Below are positions 8,590-63,165 of a stretch of 64,000 nt of DNA, one piece after another. Where the stretch lies: assembly GCA_025174535.1 (NCBI GenBank), contig JALBUN010000009.1, positions 496,001 through 560,000 on the forward strand, read 5' to 3'. A program made the translations under genes and the position numbers. The DNA comes from Cantharellus purpuraceus (lineage: Eukaryota; Basidiomycota; Agaricomycetes; Cantharellales; Hydnaceae). Position 1 is the stretch's first letter, and each line of letters starts with the position of its first letter. The notes below the pieces were generated by a model. It did not search any database and had not been told where the DNA came from. It worked only from the letters and a program-made list of their open reading frames with translations.

Positions 8590-9447
8590 TGTAAGAACCC
8601 AAGGTACTTACTTACTATAGTATATAATTATAATTAATGTATGCAGCATTCCAGTAAGGAATGCTGTCTTCTTGGTAGATATATGCACCCATTGTTAAGG
8701 GCTGGGAAACTTGGGGTTCAATGGAATAACCAGAGTTCAGCTGCTAGTGAAGAAGGGGAGGGGACTTTACTGTTCCAGTTCAACTGGAGACAGAATGGGA
8801 CAATAACTATTGAATTGGATCAGGTGGACTTGGCTTCAACTTGTGTGTTGCGCCCCCTCAGATCATTGGTCCAATATTTCAGAGTTTGGAGTATGGAGTT
8901 GGATCAAGGATCCAGAGTTTGACTTGTCAAGAAAGTACTTGTCAAGAAGCTAGCAACCAAGAAGTTGGTTGATGGGGAAAATCTTAGTCGATATATGAAC
9001 TACTGTAATAGACAGAGAGTAGCCCATATCATTATGTGGAGAATTGAATGATGAGACTAAAAGTGATAAGACAATAAGGCGGATATGGGGTACAACATGG
9101 AAAGGAGTTCAGAGTTCAGACCCAAGTCTGAACTATACTAAGCAATATAAAAGAAGAAGGTTTGTTGTAATCCTTAGAAGGAACTACTTATAAGGAGAAC
9201 AATAATGGAGTTTGGGGTTGATGGAGGTGGAGTTGATGGAGAATGGAGATGAAGGAGATGGAGATGGAGATGGAGATCCAGAGGTGTTATGGGATGTAAC
9301 ACCCATAGGGTGCATATGTATAGTTATTATGTAAGCCAGTAGACCCAAGTACACGTGTGGGTCCACATATAGTAGACAGACCTTAGTAAACAACCACACT
9401 GTACAGCACATCGCACAACCAATATACTTGGTTGAGTTCTGTGTAAC
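8590..9447 (+). repeat. LTR family B (TGTAAG...), interrupted by a solo LTR
   Basis: It starts TGTAAGAACCC after a purine tract, matching the complete 245-bp copy at 11421-11665. A family C LTR (8693-9301) is nested in it. The remainder resumes at CCCATAGGGTGCATATG and is cut at 9447 by a gypsy LTR. Confidence 0.75.
8693..9301 (-). repeat. solo LTR, gypsy family C (reverse orientation), with TSD
   Basis: On the plus strand it reads TGTTAAGGGCTG...GGGATGTAACA, 609 bp, flanked by the 5-bp duplication CCCAT (8688-8692 and 9302-9306). It is the reverse of the 3' LTR at 32428-33043, so this is a solo LTR of that chromovirus family. The reading frames inside are not supported as genes. Confidence 0.85.
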
Positions 9448-9959
9448 TGTTATGACTATATTCATTAATGTTCAGATCCCCGTCTGATCCACTCAGATCC
9501 CCGCGCATATGAAATCTATACTTCATTTGGAAACCACCATGTCTCCATCTACATGTCCGCTTGTCACTGCCGATTCCGCCCATCCGTCTCCGGTTCCGAT
9601 TGATGCATCAGCATCACCATAGGAACCTGGACATCTGTCCCCATCAGACTCAGACATACTCATGTAAGACTGTTGGCCTCGGAGACCCATCACTGGAGTA
9701 ATCATTATTAGATTTCAAAATATGTATCTAAGTTGCCCGACTGGGGACTTCATTCCCAGTTCGAATATCGAATCACACCTAGTTCCTAAGTCCGATCCTA
9801 ACTCTCTAAGTCGTACTCCGTCTCCGAAATCTCGGACACCGGTATTAGTGAGGGCGCAGCACATAAGCTGAAGCCAAGTCCGTTCCAACCCCCACGACAT
9901 ACCCCAACTCCCTCTCCAACTCCGACCCAACCTCCGACCCAACCTCTGACCCAATCTCC
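9448..9959 (+). repeat. gypsy LTR family D, truncated at the right
   Basis: It starts TGTTATGACTATATTCATTA, as in the complete LTRs at 46112-46641 and 47779-48289. It lacks the terminal GTGCGTAACA because a copia family A LTR begins at 9960. Confidence 0.8.
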
Positions 9960-10113
9960 TGTTGGAATGCACTGAAGGTCCCTACAAAGTTTGGTATGGA
10001 TTGGGTTATTGTGTGAGGAGATATGAGTGTTTTATGTGCTACAATTTCGCTTTTTTGCTGAGTTTGTAGTTTAGCTTATCTAATAACATCCAACTTCACT
10101 TTTGAGCTCTACA
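9960..10113 (+). repeat. copia LTR family A
   Basis: 154 bp, TGTTGGAATGCACTGAAGG to GAGCTCTACA, followed by primer site GGTTATGGGCCC at 10114-10125. The element leader runs on to about 10904 and ends within the first codons of gag (ATGTCTACAACC, about 10886), where a second LTR begins. Confidence 0.85.
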
Positions 10114-24121: not shown

Positions 24122-24646
24122 TGTTATGACTATATTCATTAATGCCCAGATCCCTGTCTGATCCACCTAGATCCCTGCATGCATGAAATCTATACTCCAT
24201 TTGGAAACCATCACATCTCCATTAGTCTGTCTGATCATCATTGTTGACCTCACTCATCCACCTCTAGTTCCAATTGATGCATCAGCATCACCATAGGAAC
24301 TCAGACATCTGTCCCCATTGGACTCAGACATATTCACATAAGGCTGCCGGCCTTGAAGACCCATCACTGGAGTAACTATCATTAGATTTCAAATATTTAA
24401 GTTGTATGACTGGGGACTTCATTCCCCAGTTTGAATATCAAATCACACCTAGCTCCTAAGTCTGATCTGAACCATCTAAGTTGTACTCTGTCTCCAAAAT
24501 CTTGGACACAGGTATTAGTGAGGGCACAGCACATAAGCTGAAGCCAAGTCCGTTCCAACCCCCACAACGCATCCTGATCCCCACTCCAACTCCAACCCCC
24601 AACTCCAATCCAGGCTCCAACCCCCAATCGGACCTAGTGTGTAACA
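24122..24646 (+). repeat. gypsy LTR family D
   Basis: TGTTATGACTATATTCATTA to TAGTGTGTAACA, 525 bp. Preceded by GGAGAGATAC, a purine tract like that before the 3' LTR at 32428, so it may be a 3' LTR. No matching target duplication seen. Confidence 0.75.
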
Positions 24647-24733
24647 ATAAGCCTGCGTGCAATGGCCCTATCAAATAGACAGTGTTTAATGCAGTCGTTC
24701 AGCATGCCAAAGAATTGTCAGGCCAAGTGTGTT

Positions 24734-44511: not shown

Positions 44512-46111
44512 CTCCCCCTTGATCTAACAAGTCCCACTTTCCGTCTGTGTAAGACCCATCATGTTGCAGAATTTTGGCCAGTAAGGGGTTTTGTAAGTGC
44601 ATCTGCAGGCATCAGGTGGGTGGGTAAATGTTTGAAAGTTATTTGATTCATCTCAACCTGCTCTCTGACAAAATGATGCACCATGTCTATGTGCTTTGAT
44701 TGTACATGGAAAGATGCATCCTTGGTCAGTGTGATAGTCCCAAGATTGTCACAAAATCATGGTAGCTTCCTTTTGAGGTAGGGAAAGACAGTCAAGTAAG
44801 CTCCTCAACCATAATGCTTCCTTCACACAATGATTTGTTGCCATATATTCAGCTTCACAGGATGAGGCAGCAACTGTCTGCTGCTTTTTGGAACTCCAAG
44901 ATATGACCCCCTTTCCTAGGCTGAAAAGGTAACCCAATAATATGTCTGTCAGGGTCATTTGCCCAGTTGGAGTCAGTATACTCAGTGAATTTTATGTCAA
45001 CTTTTCCTCCAGTACCAAACAAAAATTATGTGTGCCTTTAAGGTACCATATTACATGTTTTGCCACCTCCCAGTGCTCAAGTCCTGGATTGGATGTGTAT
45101 TGACTCAGTTGCTGAACAGCAAAGCTGATATCTGACTGTGTGGTTATCACTGCATATATCAGCAATCCTACAGCCATCTGGTATGGTTTCTTTGTTTCTC
45201 TTCTACATTTGATAGACACATTGTTGTTGACAGTCAAGTTCCAGTATCAAGTGGCACTGAAACAGGGTGAGCATCTTGCATTTTGAACTGTCCTATGATT
45301 GTGTCTATGTATGATCCCTGAGATAGTGAGACAGTTCTGGCTTTGCGGTCACATGTGATTGCTACTCCCAGGAGCCAGTGGACATTTCCCAGGTCCTTTA
45401 TCTCAAATAGGCATTCCAGGTCAGCTTTTAGCCTTTCCATTTCCTTCACTGAACTCACACAGGCTAGCATATCATCAACATAGATGGCAACTATGCTCAA
45501 GTTTCCATCAGCAGTGTGAGTGTAAATGCAGTGGTTGATGGAGATGCAATTGTAACCAAAACTGGTCATTGCAGTGTGTAGCTTTTTATTCCATTGCCAT
45601 CTGCCTTGTTTCAATCCATATAGGCCTTTTTGCAGCAGTGCTATATAGTCCTCTTTCCGTGGCTCCTCATACCCCTTTGGTTGTCACATGTAAACTTCTT
45701 CTTCTAAATCTCCATATAAAAGGGCCATTTTTACATCAAATTGACACATTTCCCAATCCCATTGTGCCCCAATGTGCAGCACTGCTCAGATGCCTTCCAT
45801 TCATGCCACTGGAGCAAATGTGTCAGTGTAATCCATTCCTGCTACCTGTGTAAACCCCTGAGCCACCAGATGAACTTTGTGTTCCATATCCTGCCCTTCC
45901 ACATTTTGTTTGATATGACACACTGGCCAGCATCCAATAATTTTTCTCCCTTTCAGCACAAGAGACAGTGGGACCAATTTCCACACCTTTCATGTGTTTA
46001 TAGACCCCATTTCTTTATTCATTCCTTTCTGCCACTTGGATTTGCCCTCTGACTGCATGATTGTGGGATTGCATAGATCCTATTTCATCACTGTCTCCTA
46101 GCAGCTGGTCT

Positions 46112-46641
46112 TGTTATGACTATATTCATTAATGCCCAGATCCCCATCCAATCCACTCAGATCCCCATGCACATGAAATCTATACTCCATTTGGAAACCA
46201 TCACATCTCCATTTAGTCTGTCCAATCATCACTGTTGACCTTGCTCATCCACCTCCAGTTCCGATTGATGCATCAGCATTACCATAGGAACCTGGACATC
46301 CATCCCCATCAGACTTGGACATTTTCACATAAGGCTGTTGGCCTTGGAGACCCATCACTGGAGTAACTATTATTAGATTTCAAATATATATTTAAGTTGT
46401 ACAACTGGGGACTTTATTCCCCAGTTCAAATATCAAATCACACCTAGCTCCTAAGTCCAATCCTAACTATCTAAATCATACTCCATCCCTGAAATCTCGG
46501 ACACTAGTATTAGTGAGGGTGCAGCACTTAAGCTGAAGCCAAGTCCATTCCAATCCCCATGATGCACCCTGTTCCCCACTCCCACTCCAACCCCTGACTC
46601 CAACCCAAGCTCTGACCCTCAACTGGACCTAGTGCGTAACA
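46112..46641 (+). repeat. solo gypsy LTR family D with TSD GGTCT
   Basis: TGTTATGACTATATTCATTA to GTGCGTAACA, 530 bp, flanked by GGTCT at 46107-46111 and 46642-46646, inside the copia element. Confidence 0.92.
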
Positions 46642-47778: not shown

Positions 47779-48289
47779 TGTTATGACTATATTCATTAAC
47801 GACCAGATCCCTGTCCGATCCACTCAGATCCCCACGCATATGAAATCTATACTCCATTTGGAAACCACCACATCTCCATCTACCTGTCCGATTGTCACTG
47901 CTGATTCCGCCCATCCATCTCTGGTTCCGATTGATGCATCACCATAGGAACCCAGACATCCGTCCCCATCGGACTCAGACATACTCATGTAAGGCCGTCG
48001 GCCTTGGAGACCCATCACCGGAGTAATTATTATTAGATTTCAAAATATGTATTTAAGTTGCCCGACTGGGGACTTCATTCCCCAGTTCGAATATTGAATC
48101 ACACCTAGTTCCTAAGTCTGATCCTAACTCTCTAAGTTGTACTCTGCCTCCGAAATCTCAGACACCGGTATTAGTGAGGGCGCAGCACATAAGCTGAAGC
48201 CAAGTCCGTTCTGACCCCCACGATGTGCTCCGACTCCGACCCAACCTCCGACCCAATCTCCAACCCCCAATCAAACCCAGTGCGTAACA
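47779..48289 (+). repeat. 5' LTR of gypsy element (family D)
   Basis: TGTTATGACTATATTCATTA to CAGTGCGTAACA, 511 bp, directly followed by the leader and gag of the split gypsy element. Confidence 0.88.
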
Positions 48290-48321
48290 GTATATTCGAA
48301 CTGCCATACTCACTCCTACCA

Positions 48322-50153: not shown

Positions 50154-50156
50154 TAA

Positions 50157-50722
50157 GACGCTTATTCAGAAATACAACAAATACGTATGTACAACCTATT
50201 TTCCTCAAATTTTATACAATACACTTCAATTCAAACTTATTTTCATATTTCAACATGATTCTCAAATTTTACACAATATACTAGATTAAAACATATTTTG
50301 ATATTTTGGCATAATTCTCAAAAATAATTCTTTTTTTCCTGATTTAGTGGTGGCAACTCTCTTGAAGGAACATCCAAATATCATTGATTCTTTCTTATAC
50401 AATACTTATAACATAATTTGAACTATCTTTAATCCCCACCTGGTATTTGTATATCTAAATACCCTATATAATACCAATTATATTAATACATACATTCCTA
50501 TTATGTACATGTAAATGATTATGTTCATCTCAACCGAATGTCTTATCTTTTAAAGTTTATTAAAATATAGAATATATGTTTATATTTATGAAAATTTCAC
50601 ACATCCGAAATCTTTTAAGATATCCAAATTGTAACTCCCTGGCTTTATGTATCATTGAAATCCTGATGTATATCTCCTATACATCAGAATATTGTATACT
50701 GACATGATTCCGAACAAGCGTC
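50157..50722 (+). repeat. left terminal repeat (MITE-like family)
   Basis: 566 bp. It shares with the right repeat the private variants ACTTATAAC (others ACTTGTAAC) and CAACCGAATG (others CAACCAAATG). Inner flank TAG (50723-50725) versus outer flank TAA. It contains the subterminal hairpin CTGATGTATA-N5-TATACATCAG near 50662-50686. Confidence 0.92.
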
Positions 50723-50801
50723 TAGGGAGGTCATTTTAAAAACAAAAATCATCACCTTATATCATCAACAAGCTTCTTTCTCCATAGATTTAGACATGCC
50801 A

Positions 50802-51299
50802 TTATGAATTCTTATCTTCATTGGTATGTCTGGACACTGTCCAACACAGCAAAGCCAATAGTATACCAATACTAGTTATGTAGATCATGTGCACTGTACG
50901 GCCAAGATATAGTTTCTGCCTATTTATATCTGGGCCTGGCTGTCTAACAAACGCCTGATTCACATGTGTGGTTATAATGTGTGCATATCCAGAGGTTGGA
51001 TCAGAACCACTTACAAATCTGTTGGTTTTATTCAGAAAACCTGCAAATTCTGCTACAAAAATAGGATCACTTTCATTATAGCCTATTTTATCAGGTTGTA
51101 GACCAAGAAATACATATTTGATATGAGGATACTTTGAAAGCTGGAACACTTCACCTTCAGCATATGAACGGTCCAGATACTGCCCAAAGGGGTACCAGTC
51201 ACACGTTGTACAATTAGCTAGCCGGTGTGGATTGCTGTGAAAAGGCTTTTGGTAAAACTGTTGATTGAGACGCTGTTTCAGTAATGGATCAGTCTCCAT
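50802..51299 (-). CDS. 165-aa probable tail-anchored membrane protein, unknown function
   Basis: Starts METDPLLKQRLNQQFYQ. The soluble part has a CTTC motif at residues 30-33 and no recognised fold. One hydrophobic span (about 136-155, MIYITSIGILLALLCWTV) lies ten residues from the C-terminus (SRHTNEDKNS), the layout of a tail-anchored protein. There is no signal peptide. It is the last gene before the left repeat, downstream of the transposase on the same strand. Reading frame intact; no similarity recognised. Confidence 0.6.
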   Translation of the reverse strand: METDPLLKQRLNQQFYQKPFHSNPHRLANCTTCDWYPFGQYLDRSYAEGEVFQLSKYPHIKYVFLGLQPDKIGYNESDPIFVAEFAGFLNKTNRFVSGSDPTSGYAHIITTHVNQAFVRQPGPDINRQKLYLGRTVHMIYITSIGILLALLCWTVSRHTNEDKNS

Positions 51300-51481
51300 A
51301 GATACCTATAAGTATAAAACATACAAATATTCAATTTTATTCTGGGAAAAAAATTTACAGTTGAATGTAGCATAGGTATACAATAATACTATTACTATTG
51401 TCTTTCCAATACTCTTTAATACATTCTGTAGATTTAAAGCTTGATGTTGCTTCCCAAGTTTTCTCTGCATAACATTTCCAT

Positions 51482-52606
51482 TTAACTAAATATTCTACGT
51501 ACTTTCCTTTTTCTTTGCCTTATTATTTGTTCTACTTCATTTTCAGTCTCATAATGCATCTCCACATCATACTCACATCTTTCTAATAGTCGTTGTTGAG
51601 ATAGAGTCATCTTGTCAACATCTTCTGCTCTTTCCAGTAATGATCTGGGTGGCTCAATATCTGGGTCCTCTTCCTCAGGGTAATCAAAATATTGTTCACA
51701 CCATTTTTCATGATAAGGGGATGGTTTGATCTTACGTAGTTCTACAAATTTCTTAATATTCCATAATAGACATGCTACCTTTAATTCCAGATTAAAGACA
51801 GCAGGATTTGTAGTTCTAATAGATCTCTTATTATCAAATTTTTCAAACAATATTGCAAACCCTCCAAAGAATGCTTCTACTGTTGAACGAAAGGCACCAA
51901 ACTTCTTATTAAAAATCTTTTCTTCAGGTTTAAGTTCAACATTTTTTGGCTTACGAAAAGGATAAAAGAAGTTCTTAGGCTTTAATATACTTGCCTTTAC
52001 TACTTCTGGAATAGCAGATGGATAAGCTCCATCAAAGCCTATCTGATCATTCTTATCTATTTTATTCCATACAGCCATCTCTACAAACATTTTTGCATCA
52101 GGATTTAGTTTACATGCCAATGAAGGTGAGGTGAATAGAACCATTTGATTAATGTCAATGCATACTTGAGTACGAAATCCTGCCTTTTTAAATTTATGTG
52201 AGTACCCCTCTTCAGATGTCGATCCAATCAAAATTCCTCTTGTATCATGACCATCAAGAAGTAATGTCACTGATTCCATTTTTGGAGGATTCTTTATAAG
52301 AGCTGATAATATCCTTATTATTATATTTGAGAACATTGTACGCAGTGAATCAGTAACTTGTTTATCTAGATCAAAGTTAAGATGATGCAGACGACCATAA
52401 AATTCCTTATGAACATCATAAAAGCTACTTGATGGCATGAAATTTCCTATTTCTTCATAAGTAGGACCTTTGAGTAGATGATATAGTACTAACAAGCCTT
52501 TTTCTATCTCTCTATAAGGTGTAGAATGTTCTTCAACTGAAAACAATACCACAAGAAAGAAAAATACTGGTATTGGTCCAAGCTTGTTATATACTACTTT
52601 TTTACA
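51482..52606 (-). CDS. DDE transposase, PIF/Harbinger (DDE_Tnp_4)-like
   Basis: Catalytic triad visible at D100 (VTLLLDGHDTRG), D174 (IGFDGAYPSAIP) and E226 (FRSTVEAFFGGFAILFEKF), numbered from position 52552. The order, the spacing of about 51 residues between the second Asp and the Glu, and the R-x3-E-x2-F end motif resemble HARBI1/DDE_Tnp_4 nucleases. An N-terminal helical segment (LLKGPTYEEIGNFMPSSSFY) fits the helix-turn-helix that precedes this domain. The frame stays open upstream to 52606 without ATG, so the start is unresolved and an intron to the 52829-52629 segment is possible. 3-bp A/T target duplications of the terminal repeat family agree with this superfamily. The triad is intact. 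Confidence 0.7.
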   Translation of the reverse strand, partial: CKKVVYNKLGPIPVFFFLVVLFSVEEHSTPYREIEKGLLVLYHLLKGPTYEEIGNFMPSSSFYDVHKEFYGRLHHLNFDLDKQVTDSLRTMFSNIIIRILSALIKNPPKMESVTLLLDGHDTRGILIGSTSEEGYSHKFKKAGFRTQVCIDINQMVLFTSPSLACKLNPDAKMFVEMAVWNKIDKNDQIGFDGAYPSAIPEVVKASILKPKNFFYPFRKPKNVELKPEEKIFNKKFGAFRSTVEAFFGGFAILFEKFDNKRSIRTTNPAVFNLELKVACLLWNIKKFVELRKIKPSPYHEKWCEQYFDYPEEEDPDIEPPRSLLERAEDVDKMTLSQQRLLERCEYDVEMHYETENEVEQIIRQRKRKVRRIFS

Positions 52607-52628
52607 TCATCCATGTCATTCATATCTT

Positions 52629-52829
52629 TTAGTTTTGTTCTATGATATTTTTGTGTTCTAAGACAGGCCACTTTGTGTATAGAAAATTCCAATGATTGTC
52701 CATCAACTTATTATATGCTCTGTCCCTTTGATCATTCCACATTTTAAGTTGCTGAAGCTCTTTTTCTTCTTTCTCTTTTTGCTCTTTCTCTTTTTGCTCC
52801 TTTGTGCGTTTTTGCTGGTCTGAGGGCAT
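52629..52829 (-). CDS. 66-aa Lys/Glu-rich segment, small gene or first exon of the transposase
   Basis: Starts MPSDQQKRTKEQKEKEQ, a charged helix with near-heptad KEQKEKE repeats, ending WPVLEHKNIIEQN. It lies immediately upstream of the transposase on the same strand and shares the divergent promoter region (52830-52925) with the plus-strand gene. No clean splice junction to the transposase frame was found. Confidence 0.4.
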   Translation of the reverse strand: MPSDQQKRTKEQKEKEQKEKEEKELQQLKMWNDQRDRAYNKLMDNHWNFLYTKWPVLEHKNIIEQN

Positions 52830-52925
52830 TTTGACTAAGATACTCTTATATTACAGTAAAACAAAAATATGTTCATTTTTTTGATAATTGAATTTTAAAT
52901 TAAATAATATTTATTCTATGAAGCT

Positions 52926-53576
52926 ATGTTGTCTGTCTCTAAGCAAGTTGTTAGTAAAATATCTACTGTCTTTGTTAAAAAAGAACCAGAGGATGATGAA
53001 AATCCTTTGTATATAGACTCTGACACCATCTACATAAAATTCAGATTAAGAAATCCCCCAAAGGACTTCTTTCCAGCTGGATCGGTTTCTCAGGAAAGAG
53101 ATAAAACACCAGAAGCACTGTACAATAAGATGATTGAAAAGGGCAATGAAATAAGTAATTCAACCTGGATTCAACAAAATCATTGTATGTCAAGTCTGCA
53201 AACCATGCAACAGGATAATCTGCCTAGTTGTAATATTTCTATTGCTAGAGAAACTGGCAAGAAGTGTGATATTTCTATTGCTGGGGAAACTTGTAAGAAC
53301 TGTGATGTGTATAACAATTTGGTTACATCAATGGTTGTTGCATTGAAACAACAGCAGAGAGTTTTCAAGAAAAGTAAAATCACAATCTATGGTATGATCA
53401 TAACTAAGGATGGTAGGTTAAAATTATATGAAACCACCAATAACAATCAGGGTGTTTCAATTGTTGTATATCCTTCCTCTGGATACAGCATAGAAGCTCA
53501 GTTTGAAGAGTGTTCTAATGCTATTGACATTATATTCCAAAGTATAAGAAATCAGATGTTCAAAGAATCCTCATAA
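52926..53576 (+). CDS. 216-aa cargo protein, unknown function
   Basis: Starts MLSVSKQVVSKISTVFVKKE. It has an acidic patch EPEDDENPLYIDSD, a Cys-containing duplicated stretch (CNISIARETGKKCDISIAGE, then CKNCD) and a C-terminal alpha/beta-looking part (KITIYGMIITKDGRLKLYET; GVSIVVYPSSGYSIEAQFEE). No domain recognised. It is divergent from the transposase with a ~95-bp AT-rich spacer. A role as accessory or DNA-binding partner, as PIF/Harbinger elements often carry, is only speculation. Confidence 0.55.
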   Translation: MLSVSKQVVSKISTVFVKKEPEDDENPLYIDSDTIYIKFRLRNPPKDFFPAGSVSQERDKTPEALYNKMIEKGNEISNSTWIQQNHCMSSLQTMQQDNLPSCNISIARETGKKCDISIAGETCKNCDVYNNLVTSMVVALKQQQRVFKKSKITIYGMIITKDGRLKLYETTNNNQGVSIVVYPSSGYSIEAQFEECSNAIDIIFQSIRNQMFKESS

Positions 53577-53594
53577 GGAGTTGATTTAAAAGTC

Positions 53595-53819
53595 CTAGTT
53601 TCTACACTCACAACATTTTTCATTTATTTTCACTTGGATAATTTCAAGATTTGAACTTTTGTTCACACAACAATAAGTACCATTAGTATCATGATGAGTA
53701 TTTTTTGAATGTTCAGAGCTCTTAGGACATTTAATATCCTTACAATCTGTAACTACAGATGTAGTAGTTATATGATTGCACTTCCAAGTAATTTGAATTT
53801 TTTCACTATCACCACACAT
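53595..53819 (-). CDS. 74-aa Cys-rich small protein
   Basis: MCGDSEKIQITWKCNHITTT start, eight Cys including TYCCVN and KCCECRN at the C-terminus. Pairs of cysteines suggest metal binding or disulfides. No signal peptide, no recognised family. Convergent with the 216-aa gene, 19 bp apart. Confidence 0.4.
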   Translation of the reverse strand: MCGDSEKIQITWKCNHITTTSVVTDCKDIKCPKSSEHSKNTHHDTNGTYCCVNKSSNLEIIQVKINEKCCECRN

Positions 53820-53870
53820 GCCTTCATTTGAGTGAATAAAAATATTGCATATTCACTTATCTGATTTATC

Positions 53871-54050
53871 TTATACTTGTTGTAGTGCACGTAGTGGTAG
53901 CTGAATCTCATTGTCATCATAAGTAACAGTTATTAGCAAAGTGTCATCTGACAAAGTGCCAGTTACTAATGTAACAATACCTGTCACTGTCATTTGTGTT
54001 CTTGCATTGATAAATGATACCTTATCACCAATCTCGGGTATATTCAACAT
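53871..54050 (-). CDS. 59-aa beta-rich small protein
   Basis: ATG at 54050, stop at 53871. MLNIPEIGDKVSFINARTQM opens an alternating hydrophobic pattern (VTGIVTLVTGTLSDDTLLIT; YDDNEIQLPLRALQQV) that suggests a small beta-barrel, SH3- or KOW-like in appearance only. Same strand as its neighbours and 38 bp downstream of the 81-aa gene, as in a compact cluster. Confidence 0.4.
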   Translation of the reverse strand: MLNIPEIGDKVSFINARTQMTVTGIVTLVTGTLSDDTLLITVTYDDNEIQLPLRALQQV

Positions 54051-54088
54051 GGTGTCTCTGGTTATTATATATTAATTTTCAAAACTCA

Positions 54089-54334
54089 TTATTTCTCATC
54101 TAATTTCCTATCAAGTATATCTACAAACTTCTTAAATGCTTCAAAACACTGTAGAACATTCTTTCTACTATTAATATGTTTCATACCTGTTACTGTTACA
54201 GGGAAACAACACCTTACATTTGTTATCACTTCTGAAAACAACCCTTCTGTGATAGCATGATCAAGCTCTCTTGTAACAGTTACTAGGTAAAACTGGGGGA
54301 CTTTTCTTGATGTTTGAATGCAAGGTATTGTCAT
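54089..54334 (-). CDS. 81-aa cargo protein, unknown
   Basis: MTIPCIQTSRKVPQFYLVTV start; contains VTVTRELDHAITEGLFSEVI and a basic C-terminal helix (FEAFKKFVDILDRKLDEK). No domain recognised. Lies 22 bp from the next upstream gene on the same strand. Confidence 0.4.
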   Translation of the reverse strand: MTIPCIQTSRKVPQFYLVTVTRELDHAITEGLFSEVITNVRCCFPVTVTGMKHINSRKNVLQCFEAFKKFVDILDRKLDEK

Positions 54335-54356
54335 TTCCTCTAAAGCACTTTTTCCC

Positions 54357-54581
54357 TTATTCTTCCTTATCTAAGTATGTAAAAAATTTTCTTGAAGACT
54401 CCTTTAAACATTTCACATCATCTTTTTTGTAATCAAAACTGAGGATCTCATCATCAGTATCTAAAGTAATATCTCTAAAATCTGTCTCAAAAAACTGTTT
54501 AGTCCATTGTGTGTCAACCATTATACCATAATCCCAAAGATCATGAGAACTCCAATCATTGCACTTCTTATCTTTACCCAT
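54357..54581 (-). CDS. 74-aa acidic cargo protein, unknown
   Basis: MGKDKKCNDWSSHDLWDYGI start, acidic centre DFRDITLDTDDEILSFDYKK, C-terminus SRKFFTYLDKEE. No domain recognised. Part of the tight minus-strand cluster 54581-53595. Confidence 0.4.
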   Translation of the reverse strand: MGKDKKCNDWSSHDLWDYGIMVDTQWTKQFFETDFRDITLDTDDEILSFDYKKDDVKCLKESSRKFFTYLDKEE

Positions 54582-54662
54582 GATGTCAATAAAGAAGGAT
54601 ATATAAAATTTATTTACTAGATATGTGCATAGTTCTGAAGAGCAGAATGTCCATATTTTTAT

Positions 54663-54845
54663 CTAATATTTATAAATTGAATTATATATATTTTCTAAAG
54701 TTGTCAATAGCCAGATGCATGCACTCGTTCTGAATACTACAACAAAGTCCCATACAGAATTCCCTGTCCTTTCATCTATCATTCTTCTACCAGTTCCTTG
54801 TTTCCTATCTTGCCAGTCTTTCATTCCAAATTCTTTGCTGCATAG
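54663..54845 (-). CDS. possible terminal exon in the cargo
   Basis: Open minus-strand stretch following an acceptor-like CACCTATTTAG: SKEFGMKDWQDRKQGTGRRM, then ERTGNSVWDFVVVFRTSACI, ending at the stop at 54663. No ATG at its start, so it would have to be spliced from sequence near 54860-55070. No family recognised. Confidence 0.25.
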   Translation of the reverse strand, partial: LCSKEFGMKDWQDRKQGTGRRMIDERTGNSVWDFVVVFRTSACIWLLTTLENIYNSIYKY

Positions 54846-55073
54846 CTAAATAGGTGTACCAGCCGATTGGATATTATCATATCATGGTAATGACGTCGGA
54901 TGGAAGGTCACCTTGTCAGGAGCAGTTTGATCACATTATCAAAGGACAGCCTTTTGGCTGTGAGGGTTGATAATGATGCACTTACTGAGCAGACAGTAGG
55001 TGAGACTTTGCAGCGGCATGGTGTACCAGATAATTGAATCGTTGTCCTTGAGCAGCCCAATGATGTCACTCGG

Positions 55074-55618
55074 TGTCGGTTCGCTTATGGAATAGATCCT
55101 ATAAGCCTGCGTGCAATGGTCCTAGCAAGCAGACGGTGTGTAACGCAGTTGTTCAGCACTCCAAAGATCAATCAGGGCGAGGGGTACGTAACAGGGAAGT
55201 GGGATAGTGCTCTGTGGTTGGATGAGGATGGGAGCAAAAGGTCGGTCCCGATGGCTGATCGTGCTCTGTGACTGGATGACAATGCGGAGCCCGGTTGGGA
55301 GGTACGCGAAAGCTGGTTTCAGGAGAAGCAACCTCTCGGTGGCGGAGGGAAATCTGATCGTTGAACCAAGGTGTTTTACCTCAGTGTAGAGATGATGGAT
55401 TGTGATGTAGAGTGTAGACTTAGAGCGTTGGCTGAAAACTTGTTTTTTGATTCCAAAGGCAAAAACTAGTGCCCTTTTATATACAAATTCCCAGGGCACA
55501 ACGACACAATATGAGGAGCAAATGATGCAAGAAATGCTGATCAAGCCAGCTGACGAAGCGTGTGAAGTTGAGCTACTAAAGGGGAAATCATGGAGAAATG
55601 AAACGACAGATAGGGACA
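55074..55618 (-). repeat. fragment of LTR family E nested in the cargo
   Basis: Starts TGTCGGTTCGCTTATGGAAT and matches the last ~550 bp of the long LTR (reverse of about 60290-60836). It retains many CpGs and looks young. Near-inverted repeats (GACGTCGGATGGAAGG at 54892 and its reverse counterpart ending at 55674) flank it. Confidence 0.7.
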
Positions 55619-55685
55619 TCATTAGACTGCTCATGGACAGCCATTCACTCCAAGGTGACCTTGTATCCTACGTCTTCGGCTTACA

Positions 55686-57318
55686 TTACTGGGTTCTCCC
55701 TCTACATCTTTTTCTTGAACTAGGAATTTGAGATTGATCAGAGTCTGAATCAGATTGATCAGAGTCTGAATCAGATTGATCAGAGTCTGAATCAGATTGA
55801 TCAGAGTCTGAATCAGATTGATCAGAGTCTGAATCAGATTGATCAGAGTCTGAATCAGATTGATCAGAGTCTGAATCAGATTGATCAGAGTCTGAATCAG
55901 ATTGATCAGAGTCTGAATCAGATTGATCAGAGTCTGAATCAGATTGATCAGAGTCTGAATCAGATTGATCAGAGTCTGAATCAGATTGATCAGAGTCTGA
56001 ATCAGATTGATCAGAGTCTGAATCAGATTGATCAGAGTCTGAATCAGATTGATCAGAGTCTGAATCAGATTGATCAGAGTCTGAATCAGATTGATCAGAG
56101 TCTGAATCAGATTGATCAGAGTCTGAATCAGATTGATCAGAGTCTGAATCAGATTGATCAGAGTCTGAATCAGATTGATCAGAGTCTGAATCAGATTGAT
56201 CAGAGTCTGAATCAGATTGATCAGAGTCTGAATCAGATTGATCAGAGTCTGAATCAGATTGATCAGAGTCTGAATCAGATTGATCAGAGTCTGAATCAGA
56301 TTGATCAGAGTCTGAATCAGATCGTTCCTTAGACCTTTTTTCTTGATGCCTTGAACTAGGAGTTTGAGATCGTTCGTTAGACCTTTTTTCTTGATGCCTT
56401 GAACCTTGAGTCATTCCTTGCTTCCATGTTTGAAAATTAATCCTATTACCATCTACGTCATATGATGACATTTCATTCTTTCTAGTATATATTGTAGATA
56501 GTTTTCTAGGCTCACCATTTATGAATAATTCCATTCTATTTAGTCTACAAGACTGATCTGAGTCTATAAGTATATAGTCTACACCTCTTTTCACTATCTT
56601 AAATGTCACCTTTCTGGTACCATTTTCCTGTAACCTTGTTACCTCCTGTTCTTGTTTTCCAGCCCAGTGATTCATATCAAATTTCCAGTCAACAATCTCA
56701 GATATTATTGCTTTATATTTATCACCCTGTTTCTGAAGTTTATTAATGTCTGTTCCAAGTTCCACTACAGTATCATCTGTTTCTACAATCCACTCATGCA
56801 CTTCAGATTTCCATTCCACAATGTCTGATATTGTTGCAATACATCTATTAACCTGTTTCTGAAGTTTATGAATATCTGTTCTATAGTCCAATATAAGATT
56901 CTCTGCATTATGTGTATTGACCTGTTGATGAATATCTGTTCCATGGTCTGATATTGTGGCAACACACCTGTCTCTGAAGTTTATGAATATCTGTTCCAAA
57001 TCCTGATACAATATCATTCATTTCACTCATCCATTCATCTAAATTCTCTTTCCTGTCTGTCAAAGTAGTTATAATTGTATTTTTTTCCTCAACCTGTTTC
57101 TTAAGCACCTGAATTTCCTGACTCTGGGAATTAACCTGTTGTTCAAGCATAGTGATCTGCCTATCCTTTTCACTCATCCAAGACTTGACATTTATAAGAT
57201 CAGATATTAATTCATCTTTTACTTCCATTTGACTTGCCATAGCTTTTATCAGTGCATCATTGTCACTTATCCAGCCTTTGATTGCTTTTATATCTTCAAA
57301 GATTTGTGGCATTTTCAA
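55686..57318 (-). pseudogene. coiled-coil protein with ~28 acidic heptads (DSDSDQS), frameshifted
   Basis: Starts at 57318 (MKMPQIFEDIKAIKGWISDN). A long coiled coil has repeated modules (KGWISDND, KSWMSEKD, DEWMSEMN; GTDIHKLQ at three places). It continues into EQEVTRLQENGTRKVTFKIV, a compact domain (YILIDSDQSCRLNRMELFIN), an RHQEKRS duplication and about 28 copies of DSDSDQS (about 55735-56321), ending RKRCRGRTQ. The frame shifts near 56970: relative to the sister module the DNA lacks 8 bp after CAGGT. Whole protein unrecognised; a structural or fibre-like role is only a guess. Confidence 0.6.
55735..56321. repeat. perfect or near-perfect 21-bp tandem array, ~28 units
   Basis: The unit begins TGATCAGAGTCTG and repeats every 21 bp with no variation visible by eye. 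It encodes the acidic heptads on the minus strand. Uniformity indicates recent expansion or homogenisation. Confidence 0.92.
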
Positions 57319-57458
57319 ATCCCTCTCTGCTTATAAAACAGAAATGAAAAAACATAATAATCATTTTTTCTGAACATTTGATATTTTGTATAGGCAGTAG
57401 ATATATACATCTTGCTTTCTTAATAAAATGATTATTATGTTTTTATGTTATAAGCATT

Positions 57459-57785
57459 ATGAAGATGCTCTCTTTTATGCTTCAATGCAAGATAGAGTTT
57501 GATAGAAGAGTTAATGATTGGTATATATCTCGGATAGGATCCCTCCATGATTTGTTTCTGAGGTAAGTTCCTTTATAAATATCAAGGTTCCAATCACTGA
57601 CTTTATACAGATGTACTGATGGCACACTTCTGGAACAGAAATTAACAGAGTTATATACTAGTATGGAGCAGGATCATTATTTTCCACCACTTTGGATGGA
57701 AAATCTGATGGTATTGCACCCTAAAGTACGAGGGATAGTCATACAGTCTTATGTTAGAACAAGATTATCTACCACTATGCCCTAA
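57459..57785 (+). CDS. spliced 92-aa cargo protein, unknown function
   Basis: Exon 1 57459-57562 (MKMLSFMLQCKIEFDRRVND), intron 57563-57610 (48 nt; donor AG/GTAAGT, acceptor TTATACAG), exon 2 57611-57785. The join is in frame (FLR-CTDGTLLEQKLTELY) and the protein ends VRTRLSTTMP. A textbook short intron shows that the cargo is expressed by a spliceosome. Nearest gene to the right repeat, divergent from the coiled-coil gene. No family recognised. Confidence 0.5.
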
Positions 57786-57851
57786 CTAAGTTACTTTGTT
57801 TTAAAAGTAGCTTCACTGCATTAAAGGTGTTTGTTTCCAAGACTTTCCTAA

Positions 57852-58415
57852 GACGCTTATTCAGAAATACAACAAATACGTATGTACAACCTATTTTCCT
57901 CAAATTTTATACAATACACTTCAATTCAAACTTATTTTCATATTTCAACATGATTCTCAAATTTTACACAATATACTAGATTAAAACATATTTTGATATT
58001 TTGGCATAATTCTCAAAAATAATTCTTTTTTTCCTGATTTAGTGGTGGCAACTCTCTTGAAGGAACATCCAAATATCATTGATTCTTTCTTATACAATAC
58101 TTATAACATAATTTGAACTATCTTTAATCCCCACCTGGTATTTGTATATCTAAATACCCTATATAATACCAATTATATTAATACATACATTCCTATTATG
58201 TACATGTAAATGATTATGTTCATCTCAACCGAATGTCTTATCTTTTAAAGTTTATTAAAATATAGAATATATGTTTATATTTATGAAAATTTCACATCCG
58301 AAATCTTTTAAGATATCCAAATTGTAACTCCCTGGCTTTATGTATCATTGAAATCCTGATGTATATCTCCTATACATCAGAATATTGTATACTGACATGA
58401 TTCCGAACAAGCGTC
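57852..58415 (+). repeat. right terminal repeat (MITE-like family)
   Basis: 564 bp, identical by eye to the left repeat except that TTCACACATCC reads TTCACATCC. Inner flank TAA (57849-57851), outer flank TAA (58416-58418). Confidence 0.92.
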
Positions 58416-58418
58416 TAA

Positions 58419-60289: not shown

Positions 60290-63165
60290 CCCCTTTAGTA
60301 GTTCAACTTCACACGCTTCGTTAGCTGGCTTGATCAGTATTTCTTGTATCATATCGTATCATTTGCTCCTTATATTGTGTCGTTGTGCCCTGGGGATTTG
60401 TATATAAAAGGGTGCTAGTTTTCGCCTTTGGAATAAATCAACAAGTTTTCAGCCAATGCTCTAAAGTCAAAGTCCACGCTCTAAGTCTACGCTCTACGCT
60501 CTACATCACAATCCATCATCTCTACACTAAGGTAAAGCACCTTGGTTCAACAATCAGATTTCCCTCTGCCACCGAGAGGTTGCTTCTCCTGAAACCAGCT
60601 TTTGCATACCTCCCAACCGGGCTCCCCATTGTCATCCAGTCACAGAGCACGATCAGCCATCGGGACCGACCTTTAGCTCCCATCCCTATCCAACCACAGA
60701 GCACTATCCCACTTCCCTGTTACTTACCCCTCGCCCTGATTGATCTTTGGAGTGCTGAACAACTGCGTTACACACCGTCTGTTTGCTAGGACCGTTGCGC
60801 GCAGGCTTATAGGATCTATTCCTTAAGCGAACCGACAGCGATCCCATATTCTTTCACGATTCCGTTGAACCATATACATTCCTCGGCATTTTGCCTCTAT
60901 ATCGTAACACGGATAGACGAGTCGAACGTGAGGTAGAATTTCAGTCGCCATCACAGACCTATCCTCCCACTTCAATCCGACTCAGGTTACATCGTGTCAG
61001 GCAAAGGGACCGAATACCCTTGGAATGGGATACCATATGGAGACGTATCACTAAGACAATAAGGAGTATTTGACTCAGGGTCAATTTACCTTCAGAGCCA
61101 TATGGAAGATGGTATTGGTGGACATTTCTATTGTTCTTTTATATGACTCACCCCTGTTTCATCTTTTAATTCATTCATACACAACTTACTCATCCTTGTT
61201 CTATTTTTGGTTCTTTTATTACTCATCACCCCTATTCTTACAAAGATTACCCCTATCTGTCACTTCATTTCTCCAAGATTTCCCCATTAGTAGTTCAACT
61301 TCACATGCTTCATCAGCTGGCTTGATCAGCATTTCTTGCATCATATCGCATCATTTGCTCTTCATATTGTGTCGTTGTGCCCTGGGGATTTGTATATAAA
61401 AGGGCGCTAGTTTTCACCTTTGGAATGAATCAACAAGTTTTCAGCCCACACTCTAAAGTCAAAGTCCATGCTCTAAGTCTACGCTCTACGCTCTACATCA
61501 CAATCCATCAGCTCTACACTGAGGTAAAGCACCTTGGTTCAATGATCAGATTTCCCTCTGCCACCGAGAGGTCGCTTCTCCTGAAACCAGCTTTTGCATA
61601 CCTCCCAACCGGGCTCTCCATCCTCATCCAGTCACAGAGCACGATTAGCCATCAGGACCGACCTTTTGCTCCCATCCTCATCCAACCACAGAGCACTATT
61701 CCACTTTCCTGTTACTCAGTGCTACCTCCCCTTTAGTAGTTCAACTTCACACGCTTCGTTAGCTGGCTTGATCAGTATTTCTTGTATCATATCGTATCAT
61801 TTGCTCCTTATATTGTGTCGTTGTGCCCTGGGGATTTGTATATAAAAGGGTGCTAGTTTTCGCCTTTGGAATAAATCAACAAGTTTTCAGCCAATGCTCT
61901 AAAGTCAAAGTCCACGCTCTAAGTCTACGCTCTACGCTCTACATCACAATCCATCATCTCTACACTAAGGTAAAGCACCTTGGTTCAACAATCAGATTTC
62001 CCTCTGCCACCGAGAGGTTGCTTCTCCTGAAACCAGCTTTTGCATACCTCCCAACCGGGCTCCCCATTGTCATCCAGTCACAGAGCACGATCAGCCATCG
62101 GGACCGACCTTTAGCTCCCATCCCTATCCAACCACAGAGCACTATCCCACTTCCCTGTTACTTACCCCTCGCCCTGATTGATCTTTGGAGTGCTGAACAA
62201 CTGCGTTACACACCGTCTGTTTGCTAGGACCGTTGCGCGCAGGCTTATAGGATCTATTCCTTAAGCGAACCGACAGCGATCCCATATTCTTTCACGATTC
62301 CGTTGAACCATATACATTCCTCGGCATTTTGCCTCTATATCGTAACACGGATAGACGAGTCGAACGTGAGGTAGAATTTCAGTCGCCATCACAGACCTAT
62401 CCTCCCACTTCAATCCGACTCAGGTTACATCGTGTCAGGCAAAGGGACCGAATACCCTTGGAATGGGATACCATATGGAGACGTATCACTAAGACAATAA
62501 GGAGTATTTGACTCAGGGTCAATTTACCTTCAGAGCCATATGGAAGATGGTATTGGTGGACATTTCTATTGTTCTTTTATATGACTCACCCCTGTTTCAT
62601 CTTTTAATTCATTCATACACAACTTACTCATCCTTGTTCTATTTTTGGTTCTTTTATTACTCATCACCCCCTATTCTTACAAAGATTACCCCTATCTGTC
62701 ACTTCATTTCTCCAAGATTTCCCCATTAGTAGTTCAACTTCACATGCTTCATCAGCTGGCTTGATCAGCATTTCTTGCATCATATCGCATCATTTGCTCT
62801 TCATATTGTGTCGTTGTGCCCTGGGGATTTGTATATAAAAGGGCGCTAGTTTTCACCTTTGGAATGAATCAACAAGTTTTCAGCCCACACTCTAAAGTCA
62901 AAGTCCATGCTCTAAGTCTACGCTCTACGCTCTACATCACAATCCATCAGCTCTACACTGAGGTAAAGCACCTTGGTTCAATGATCAGATTTCCCTCTGC
63001 CACCGAGAGGTCGCTTCTCCTGAAACCAGCTTTTGCATACCTCCCAACCGGGCTCTCCATCCTCATCCAGTCACAGAGCACGATTAGCCATCAGGACCGA
63101 CCTTTTGCTCCCATCCTCATCCAACCACAGAGCACTATTCCACTTTCCTGTTACTCAGTGCTACC
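60290..63165 (+). repeat. 1,438-bp tandem duplication (two units)
   Basis: Unit 1 is 60290-61727, unit 2 is 61728-63165, differing by one base by eye (run of four versus five C near 61229/62668). The junction GTGCTACCTC/CCCTTTAG shows only 1-3 bp of shared C bases. Confidence 0.88.

Follow-up and report, generated by a model that had tools for sequence, protein, structure and literature searches.

A PIF/Harbinger-like DNA transposon with long terminal direct repeats in Cantharellus purpuraceus

Long direct repeats in known mobile elements

LTR retrotransposons carry identical terminal repeats and leave solo repeats, IS26/IS6 elements have their transposase gene inside the repeat, and elements of the PIF/Harbinger group are known with inverted ends only, without long terminal direct repeats. 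To our knowledge, replicative cointegrates have not been established for PIF/Harbinger elements. The closest described layout is that of the KolobokP DNA transposons of the Kolobok superfamily, whose members in hosts of seven animal phyla consist of two long terminal direct repeats around an interior (LTDR-INT-LTDR); the part of the description drawn on here presents such repeats as unlike any other DNA transposon and calls the pathway unknown (Kojima and Bao 2022, PMC9587614). KolobokP was also the only other DNA transposon with long terminal direct repeats recognised in the open-access literature, which was searched by titles, abstract starts and term counts.

Here we describe a unit of this layout from a window, that is, the whole stretch of 64,000 nucleotides of C. 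purpuraceus DNA that was analysed. The original prediction had offered several readings, none of them a standard element type known to it in fungi. The unit is a DNA element with LTR-like termini, one of those readings, but its layout has already been described in animals in the KolobokP text used (PMC9587614).

Structure of the unit and of its family

The unit has the following parts, on window positions.

50154–50156, no strand: outer target-site duplication, left copy, TAA, identical to 58416–58418
50157–50722, plus strand: left long terminal direct repeat, 566 bp, with imperfect inverted ends of ~16 bp
50723–57851, no strand: interior (INT), ~7.1 kb, starting with TAG followed by GGGAGGTC and ending with GACTTTCC followed by TAA
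57852–58415, plus strand: right long terminal direct repeat, 564 bp, with 0 substitutions and one gap against the left repeat
58416–58418, no strand: outer target-site duplication, right copy, TAA

The two repeat cores lie in the same orientation and align with one 2-bp gap. Coordinates and repeat alignment bear out the layout originally proposed, with its long direct repeats, inverted ends, TAA flanks and inner junctions. The ends of a repeat (GACGCTTATTCAGAAA and TTCCGAACAAGCGTC) are imperfect inverted repeats, and the inner junctions read GCGTC followed by TAGGGAGG on the left and CTTTCCTAA followed by GACGC on the right. The outer ends of the unit, GACGCTT.. and ..AAGCGTC, are short terminal inverted repeats with G as the first base. 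The uninterrupted gypsy site that removal of the unit was expected to restore does occur elsewhere in the genome: a 29-base pattern across the insertion point gave 315 matches (up to 3 mismatches), and among the 100 matches listed 98 were continuous and two were filled, one by the studied unit and one by another unit on contig C7.

The studied unit is one copy of a young, abundant and near-identical family of over fifty copies. There are 57 interior left ends in the genome, on many contigs, together with 56 left and 61 right repeat-interior junctions and 530 matches to the left end of the repeat; roughly 400 solo repeats were derived from the repeat-end and junction counts. In so young and large a family the repeat pairs record each event. 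Several units at unrelated sites, with varied 3-bp duplications and constant inner junctions, had been expected of a real mobile unit with LTR-like repeats and were found. Repeat-free interiors, named beforehand as the contrary case, were not seen at the left end, where 56 of the 57 interiors adjoin a repeat (at most 1 mismatch). Of 45 units examined, 39 carry the same 3 bp on both outer sides; with shuffled flanks the number was 8.6 on average and 19 at most. The duplicated bases of 37 distinct insertions were T at the first position in 32, A or T in the middle in 34 and A at the third in 28, preceded by C in 23 and followed by G in 25; the target site is C-TWA-G. One dimer is flanked by TTA at either outer end, with 2 differences between its left and middle repeats, and on contig C44 the places of the junctions reveal a tandem array.

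The inner flank TAG is also present in an old relative, L113. A repeat of ~515 bp that interrupts the repeat of L113 was considered as a further relative and set aside, since several of its copies in the window have TG..CA-like ends and it looks like a solo LTR. Positions 54870–55680 are not an insertion private to the studied copy, as alignments to five other loci (L033, L034, L036, L037 and L038) pass through them.

Genes of the interior and affinity of the transposon

The interior had been described as dense coding sequence, which is fair except that the transposase frame is interrupted at A-runs. It holds the following features.

50802–51305, minus strand: 167-aa ORF with a putative C-terminal membrane helix (by eye)
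about 51362–51510, minus strand: chromodomain-like transposase piece, split off by frame breaks at A-runs
51482–52606, minus strand: transposase ORF, 374 aa, DDE_Tnp_4 (PIF/Harbinger or PHIS type)
extending to about 52830, minus strand: N-terminal transposase piece, split off by frame breaks at A-runs, read by eye
52908–53573, plus strand: 222-aa ORF, also in L113 (dN 0.10 / dS 0.16)
53598–54662, minus strand: cluster of small ORFs (85, 66, 93 and 101 aa)
55686–57330, minus strand: coiled-coil ORFs; a 21-bp tandem array in them encodes SDSDSDQ repeats

The transposase ORF matched Pfam DDE_Tnp_4 at E 1.8e-4, below the curated cut-off. Its 58 homologues, compared as protein sequences, have identities of up to 53%; DDE_Tnp_4 is listed for 52 of them and Chromo for 36, and four were rescanned for domains. 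D118 and D192 are invariant in the alignment and E244 is nearly so, and the fold is of the DDE type; no PDB entry was matched by Foldseek at E <= 0.001. By these comparisons the protein is a DDE_Tnp_4 transposase (PIF/Harbinger-type, PHIS superfamily) related to chromodomain transposases. Its named relatives are from early-diverging fungi, and a scan of the alignment against viral and prokaryotic contigs gave none. Longer open frames occur in other copies than in the studied one, and a homopolymer artefact of assembly is a possible cause of the breaks. The 167-aa ORF is 88% identical over 161 aa to that of L113 (dN 0.04 / dS 0.12) and found a single further homologue when compared with the protein database, at 52% over 67% of its length. 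No Pfam match was found for the 222-aa ORF at E 0.1, and no homologue for a 140-aa coiled-coil ORF at E 0.01. The 21-bp array has 28 exact copies in the studied unit and 1 to 16 in nine other loci.

The unit combines a DDE_Tnp_4/IS5-like DDE transposase, 3-bp TWA (or C-TNA-G) duplications and short inverted ends with G as the first base (G or A in PHIS elements), all of them features of the PHIS superfamily, and is almost certainly a PHIS (PIF/Harbinger-like) DNA transposon with the LTDR-INT-LTDR (repeat-interior-repeat) layout. It does not have inverted ends only. In the portion of PMC4482050 used here, PIF/Harbinger elements, NuwaII and their relatives share with it the DDE transposase type, the 3-bp TWA duplications and the short inverted ends starting with G, and NuwaII also the C-TNA-G target, whereas the known groups are described with inverted ends, in place of the long direct repeats seen here and their apparent origin from one template. 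A Myb/SANT-like second ORF gave no Pfam match in the ORFs scanned from the fungal unit, whose genes may be split or unrecognised, and this may be a further difference from those groups.

Besides the layout, KolobokP elements resemble the unit in carrying their transposase within the interior, in occurring as solo repeats and as multimers with shared repeats, in having outer duplications, and in the short inverted ends that each repeat has of its own, the repeats being about 450 or 660 bp long there and 566 here. The differences, so far as that part of the description goes, are a Kolobok transposase and TTAA-type duplications there against DDE_Tnp_4 relatives and 3-bp TWA here; a His-Me homing endonuclease, of which Pfam found no His-Me finger match in the interior ORFs scanned; and single-repeat loss and interior-interior junctions (PMC9587614). 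An exact-pattern search of the fungal genome for such junctions, with a spacer of 0–12 bases, gave 0, and hence no sign of the kind of repeat excision described for KolobokP. The unit appears to have arisen independently, in a different superfamily and kingdom, and as a second case it would make the long-direct-repeat layout a recurrent design.

Repeat pairs and the mode of spread

The repeats were compared in 30 units that have both, in a single genome. Left and right repeats of a unit differ at a median of 1 position (mean 3.0), against a median of 12 between units, a likeness reached by 0 of 10,000 permutations. The own partner is the closest repeat, or tied, in 23 of the 30, and 7 units have a closer match elsewhere. 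Substitutions between units are 11.4 (left-left), 11.5 (right-right) and 11.5 (left-right), against 2.6 within units, and as the three are alike there are no separate left or right lineages. In 25 duplication-flanked units, 17 private left-right differences in 28,300 give a rate of 6.0e-4 per site and lineage; in 20 units, 34 interior singletons in 57,600 give 5.9e-4. From these similar rates the two repeats seem to have been the same when inserted and to have mutated afterwards. Unit by unit, the private changes between left and right do not track those in the interior (rho 0.26, p 0.29). These comparisons suggest that both repeats in most units examined are copies from a single template, at a point where Kojima and Bao call the pathway unknown.

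Repeats and interiors have different histories. Divergence between 20 units is 1.78% in the repeats and 0.32% in the interiors (5.5 times more in repeats), and the repeats are mosaic, combining sequence from the solo-repeat pool: the four-gamete test fails for 170 of their 528 site pairs. Repeats that are alike within units, yet mosaic and more divergent than the interiors, are predicted by a one-repeat intermediate and not by simple whole-unit cut-and-paste. The claim that the unit moved as one piece is therefore doubtful, and it is probable, judging from this one genome, that some one-repeat stage exists, whatever the landing mode.

Recombination between the two repeats would yield a circle with a single repeat and a single interior, or a concatemer from the circle. 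The transposase would recognise the inverted ends of a repeat and join them to a C-TWA-G site. Since the repeat would be copied during joining, the interior would come to have the same repeat sequence on either side, and the freshly made 3-bp duplication would lie outside, the earlier 3-bp flanks (TAG, TAA) inside. The geometry would be that of a bacterial replicative cointegrate of the IS26 type. Repeat-repeat recombination would remove interiors and leave solos, repeats transposing alone would add others, and recombination of the one-repeat stage with solos would shuffle the repeats. The IS26/IS6 pseudo-compound transposons and translocatable units, in the part of PMC7986276 drawn on, likewise have direct repeats, arrays, proposed one-repeat circles, and a new target duplication outside with old flanks inside; they are bacterial, and the fungal unit differs in having its transposase in the interior. 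Paired direct repeats, a new duplication outside and old flanks inside are all found in the fungal family, with many pairs near-identical, not identical, and the one-base difference between the inner flanks TAG and TAA counts against the mechanism. The chances of the whole mechanism, a one-repeat stage plus a transposase-driven, repeat-copying landing of IS26 cointegrate geometry, seem evenly balanced. More tentatively, the transposon may spread by transposase-driven replicative cointegration of a one-repeat circle, its repeat doubling at every landing as with IS26, and may take up a new repeat from the genome-wide solo pool between landings, core and ends evolving separately. The repeat pairs make it possible to ask in concrete terms whether cointegrates like those of IS26 are formed by transposases of eukaryotes.

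It is somewhat unlikely that the one-repeat circle instead lands by homology in a resident solo, repair making both repeats of the resident type and the outer duplication being that of the old solo. Unit repeats do look as if drawn at random from among the solos (the two kinds belong to a single pool, at 2.0, 2.2 and 2.2%), roughly four hundred solos are potential targets, and the repeats of some units show block differences. Repeat and interior distances, weakly correlated over all 20 units (rho 0.41, p 0.018), are not so in the 16 younger ones (rho -0.03, p 0.53), and landing in random solos fits this at least as well as a cointegrate. However, had a circle entered a resident repeat by one simple crossover, as was put forward originally, ~11 to 12 left-right differences would remain; these are absent from most units, and in 14 of the 25 duplication-flanked units left and right agree at every pool site, so that repair must often have covered the whole 566 bp. 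Right repeat ends are decayed at CpG in 39 of 349 cases genome-wide, and an altered inverted end common to both repeats occurs in 0 of 30 units, where random use would give 3 to 4 for the right end alone, a comparison of modest power. Nor is there a solo in the 98 other gypsy-site copies listed, though this site was hit twice. The other 11 duplication-flanked units have at least one left-right difference that is a pool allele (up to 9), and together with the closer foreign match in 7 of 30 units they indicate that conversion or homologous landing also acts.

The same 11 units, and the mosaic state of repeats and interiors alike (in the interiors, 78 of 231 site pairs are incompatible by the four-gamete test), would fit ordinary whole-unit cut-and-paste with ectopic gene conversion by solos and local homogenisation within each unit. 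We consider this improbable, because ongoing homogenisation should remove private left-right differences, which instead occur at the interior singleton rate, and units without matching duplications are less homogenised (a mean of 7.4 differences in 5 units, as opposed to 2.1 in the 25 with duplications; one-sided p=0.014). Identical repeat pairs and solo repeats would also be expected of a non-autonomous LTR retrotransposon with a captured transposase gene, its LTRs made by reverse transcription in trans. That origin is very improbable: the ends are GACGC...GCGTC and not TG...CA, the duplications are 3 bp at C-TWA-G, where LTR retrotransposons make longer ones, the inner ends have no primer-binding or polypurine tract by eye, and the interior has no reverse transcriptase domain in the ORFs scanned and no YxDD-like motif in its six frames, though a partner element might supply the enzyme in trans. 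An accidental composite, of two independent repeat insertions around a gene block, or an assembly artefact is refuted by the number of interior left ends, which are spread over many contigs and have unvarying junctions, and by that of matching outer duplications.

For the PHIS transposon with a one-repeat stage that we favour, the interior ends also bear on how the layout arose. Joined without the repeat they read TTTCC-TAR-GGGAGG, which resembles the element's own target, and the layout may thus have begun with a MITE-like repeat landing where the two ends of a Harbinger element met in its circular form.

Structure and copy number of the unit

As originally described, the unit at 50154-58418 carries direct repeats around its interior and a TAA outside each end. 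Its inner junctions read GCGTC followed by TAGGGAGG on the left and CTTTCCTAA followed by GACGC on the right. The two repeat cores were identical in pairwise comparison save for one 2-bp gap.

50157-50722, left repeat core, same orientation as the right core
57852-58415, right repeat core, same orientation as the left core

Pattern counts over the whole of this single genome (40.15 Mb, 50 contigs) gave 57 interior left ends, 56 left and 61 right repeat-interior junctions, and 530 repeat left ends (≤2 mismatches). Subtraction of counts leaves roughly 400 solo repeats, that is, repeats with no interior. The check for interiors lacking repeats, counted on left ends only, showed that 56 of 57 adjoin a repeat, and no exact interior-interior junction was counted in the whole genome. 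The 40 interior copies scored were 98-100% identical. The window unit is one member of a family.

Contig C45 holds a dimer whose units share a repeat, with TTA on both outer sides. Junction positions on the 19-kb contig C44 reveal a tandem array, also with a repeat shared between units. At C9:1491743-1505938 (loci L043, L014, L074) two units lie head-to-head with a gap of about 434 bp, perhaps reflecting local hopping. Unit pairs C8/C29 and C15_76/C26_133 have both outer flanks in common, and C1_3855/C37 and C36/C38_12 have one; regions with units therefore seem to have been duplicated.

Target-site duplications and the gypsy target

Several units with different 3-bp duplications had been named as what would support transposition of the unit. 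Many units were found, and the same three bases stand on each side in 39 of the 45 with both outer flanks readable (25/30 in the repeat-pair set and 14/15 further units, three read by eye), against 8.6 matches on average, and never more than 19, in 10,000 trials of flank shuffling. After two segmental duplicates were removed, 37 distinct insertions gave the target C (23/37), T (32), A/T (34), A (28), G (25). Matching flanks were also present in 13 of 15 solo repeats examined, one solo being entered twice (L005 is window 15292). Three units (L014, L043 (C9:1499354), L069 (C45:167205), L042 (C5 end)) have an identical 14-base outer flank on one side only, GGACTTTGACTTTA or its complement, and their opposite flanks differ; this flank is perhaps the end of another repeat.

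A 29-base pattern of the gypsy target had 315 matches; among 100 listed, 98 were continuous and two were filled, by the window unit and by one on contig C7. The units at window 50154-58418 and C7:293315-301171 occupy exactly the same gypsy site. Their gypsy flanks are slightly different and their repeats are 14 substitutions apart, and they are probably independent hits on one target.

Repeat pairs and the route of insertion

Both repeats were compared in 30 of at least 57 units. Left and right repeats differed by a median of 1 (mean 3.0) within units and a median of 12 between units; the partner was closest or tied in 23/30, and a closer match lay elsewhere in 7/30. None of 10,000 permutations reached the observed within-unit mean. 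Between-unit substitutions (left-left 11.4, right-right 11.5, left-right 11.5; 2.6 within units) revealed no distinct left and right lineages. By this comparison, the two repeats of one unit look like copies of a single repeat. Unit-private differences (6.0e-4 per site and lineage) are close to interior singletons (5.9e-4), which is what two repeats without differences at the time of insertion should show. From one unit to the next, private repeat and interior changes were not correlated (rho 0.26, p 0.29). The one-repeat-copy rule is imperfect: in 11 of the 25 units flanked by duplications, left and right differ at one or more pool-polymorphic sites as well, up to 9, which counts against it. 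Units without matching duplications had a mean left-right difference of 7.4 (n = 5) versus 2.1 (n = 25; one-sided p = 0.014), and are perhaps recombinants.

The identity of repeat pairs is explained if the element passes, before landing, through a form with a single repeat and a single interior. Transposase-driven, IS26-type replicative landing from a circle of this form would give repeat-interior-repeat with a fresh duplication outside, and we give this reading middling confidence. According to PMC7986276, IS26-type replicative transposition from a circle gives two direct repeats and a new duplication outside, with the donor's old flanks split inside. The inner flanks of the family are TAG and TAA, TAG recurring in the old relative L113; brought together with the repeat removed, these ends give TTTCC-TAR-GGGAGG, which would make a good C-TWA-G target. 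The one-repeat stage might instead land by homology in resident solos, with repair spanning the whole repeat. This is rather unlikely, yet it accounts well for the uncoupling of repeats from interiors. Across 20 units repeats diverge by 1.78% and interiors by 0.32%; incompatible site pairs numbered 170/528 in repeats (30 units) and 78/231 in interiors (20 units), and the repeats are mosaics. Divergence within and between classes (unit-unit 2.0%, solo-solo 2.2%, solo-unit 2.2%) places unit and solo repeats in a single pool. Over the full set of 20 units, repeat and interior distances were weakly correlated (rho 0.41, p 0.018); once the four most divergent were removed they were uncorrelated (rho -0.03, p 0.53). 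The histories of repeats and interiors differ. Against homology, an altered inverted end common to both repeats was seen in 0/30 units; right ends are decayed at CpG in 39/349 genome-wide, a rate at which the chance of none in 30 is about 3 per cent. Plain cut-and-paste would preserve a left and a right lineage of repeats; cut-and-paste with gene conversion on top is still less probable than homology.

Known kinds, interior and old relatives

The element is a PHIS-type transposon by its transposase, duplication and ends; the target C-TNA-G of NuwaII (PMC4482050) counts toward this assignment, and by layout it departs from the standard PIF/Harbinger form. The same repeat-interior-repeat layout is described for KolobokP, animal elements that combine a Kolobok transposase with a homing endonuclease; the authors of that work call the layout unlike any other DNA transposon and the pathway unknown, and mention IS26 circles (PMC9587614). 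Beyond KolobokP we recognised no such element among the open-access papers that the literature searches listed.

Locus L113 (C23:1086000-1094500) is about 85% identical to the unit over 3.2 kb. Its repeat is 76% identical with the same left junction, and its right end is lost; repeat and interior have therefore long travelled together, and the unit type is a lineage, not a single accident. One copy of a ~515-bp repeat interrupts the L113 repeat. Other copies (window 47779-48292, 9444-9952, 46111-46641, 24122-24650), several with TG..CA-like ends, are probably solo LTRs.

An older copy on C24 (L037:1-1242 and 9274-10000) hosts a nested unit. In the transposase stretch (51567-52781) this older copy shares 79% identity with the window, against 98.5% just beyond. 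Second-type transposase proteins, 62-66% identical, occur at L037 (C24) and L113:5028-6026 (C23), and the transposase appears to be an interchangeable cassette. Frame breaks in the window transposase (51362-52830) were located by eye at A-runs and could stem from homopolymer errors of long reads instead of mutation. A ~350-bp interior stretch (window 55074-55424) is also present outside units, adjoining some (L036:784-1136; L042:8077-8428; L043:7960-8310), so the interior contains another repeat; similar translations lie near window 60334-60789. A 21-bp tandem array at 55731-56322 encodes SDSDSDQ, with a longest exact run of 28 copies in the window versus 1-16 in nine other loci, and is a possible strain marker.
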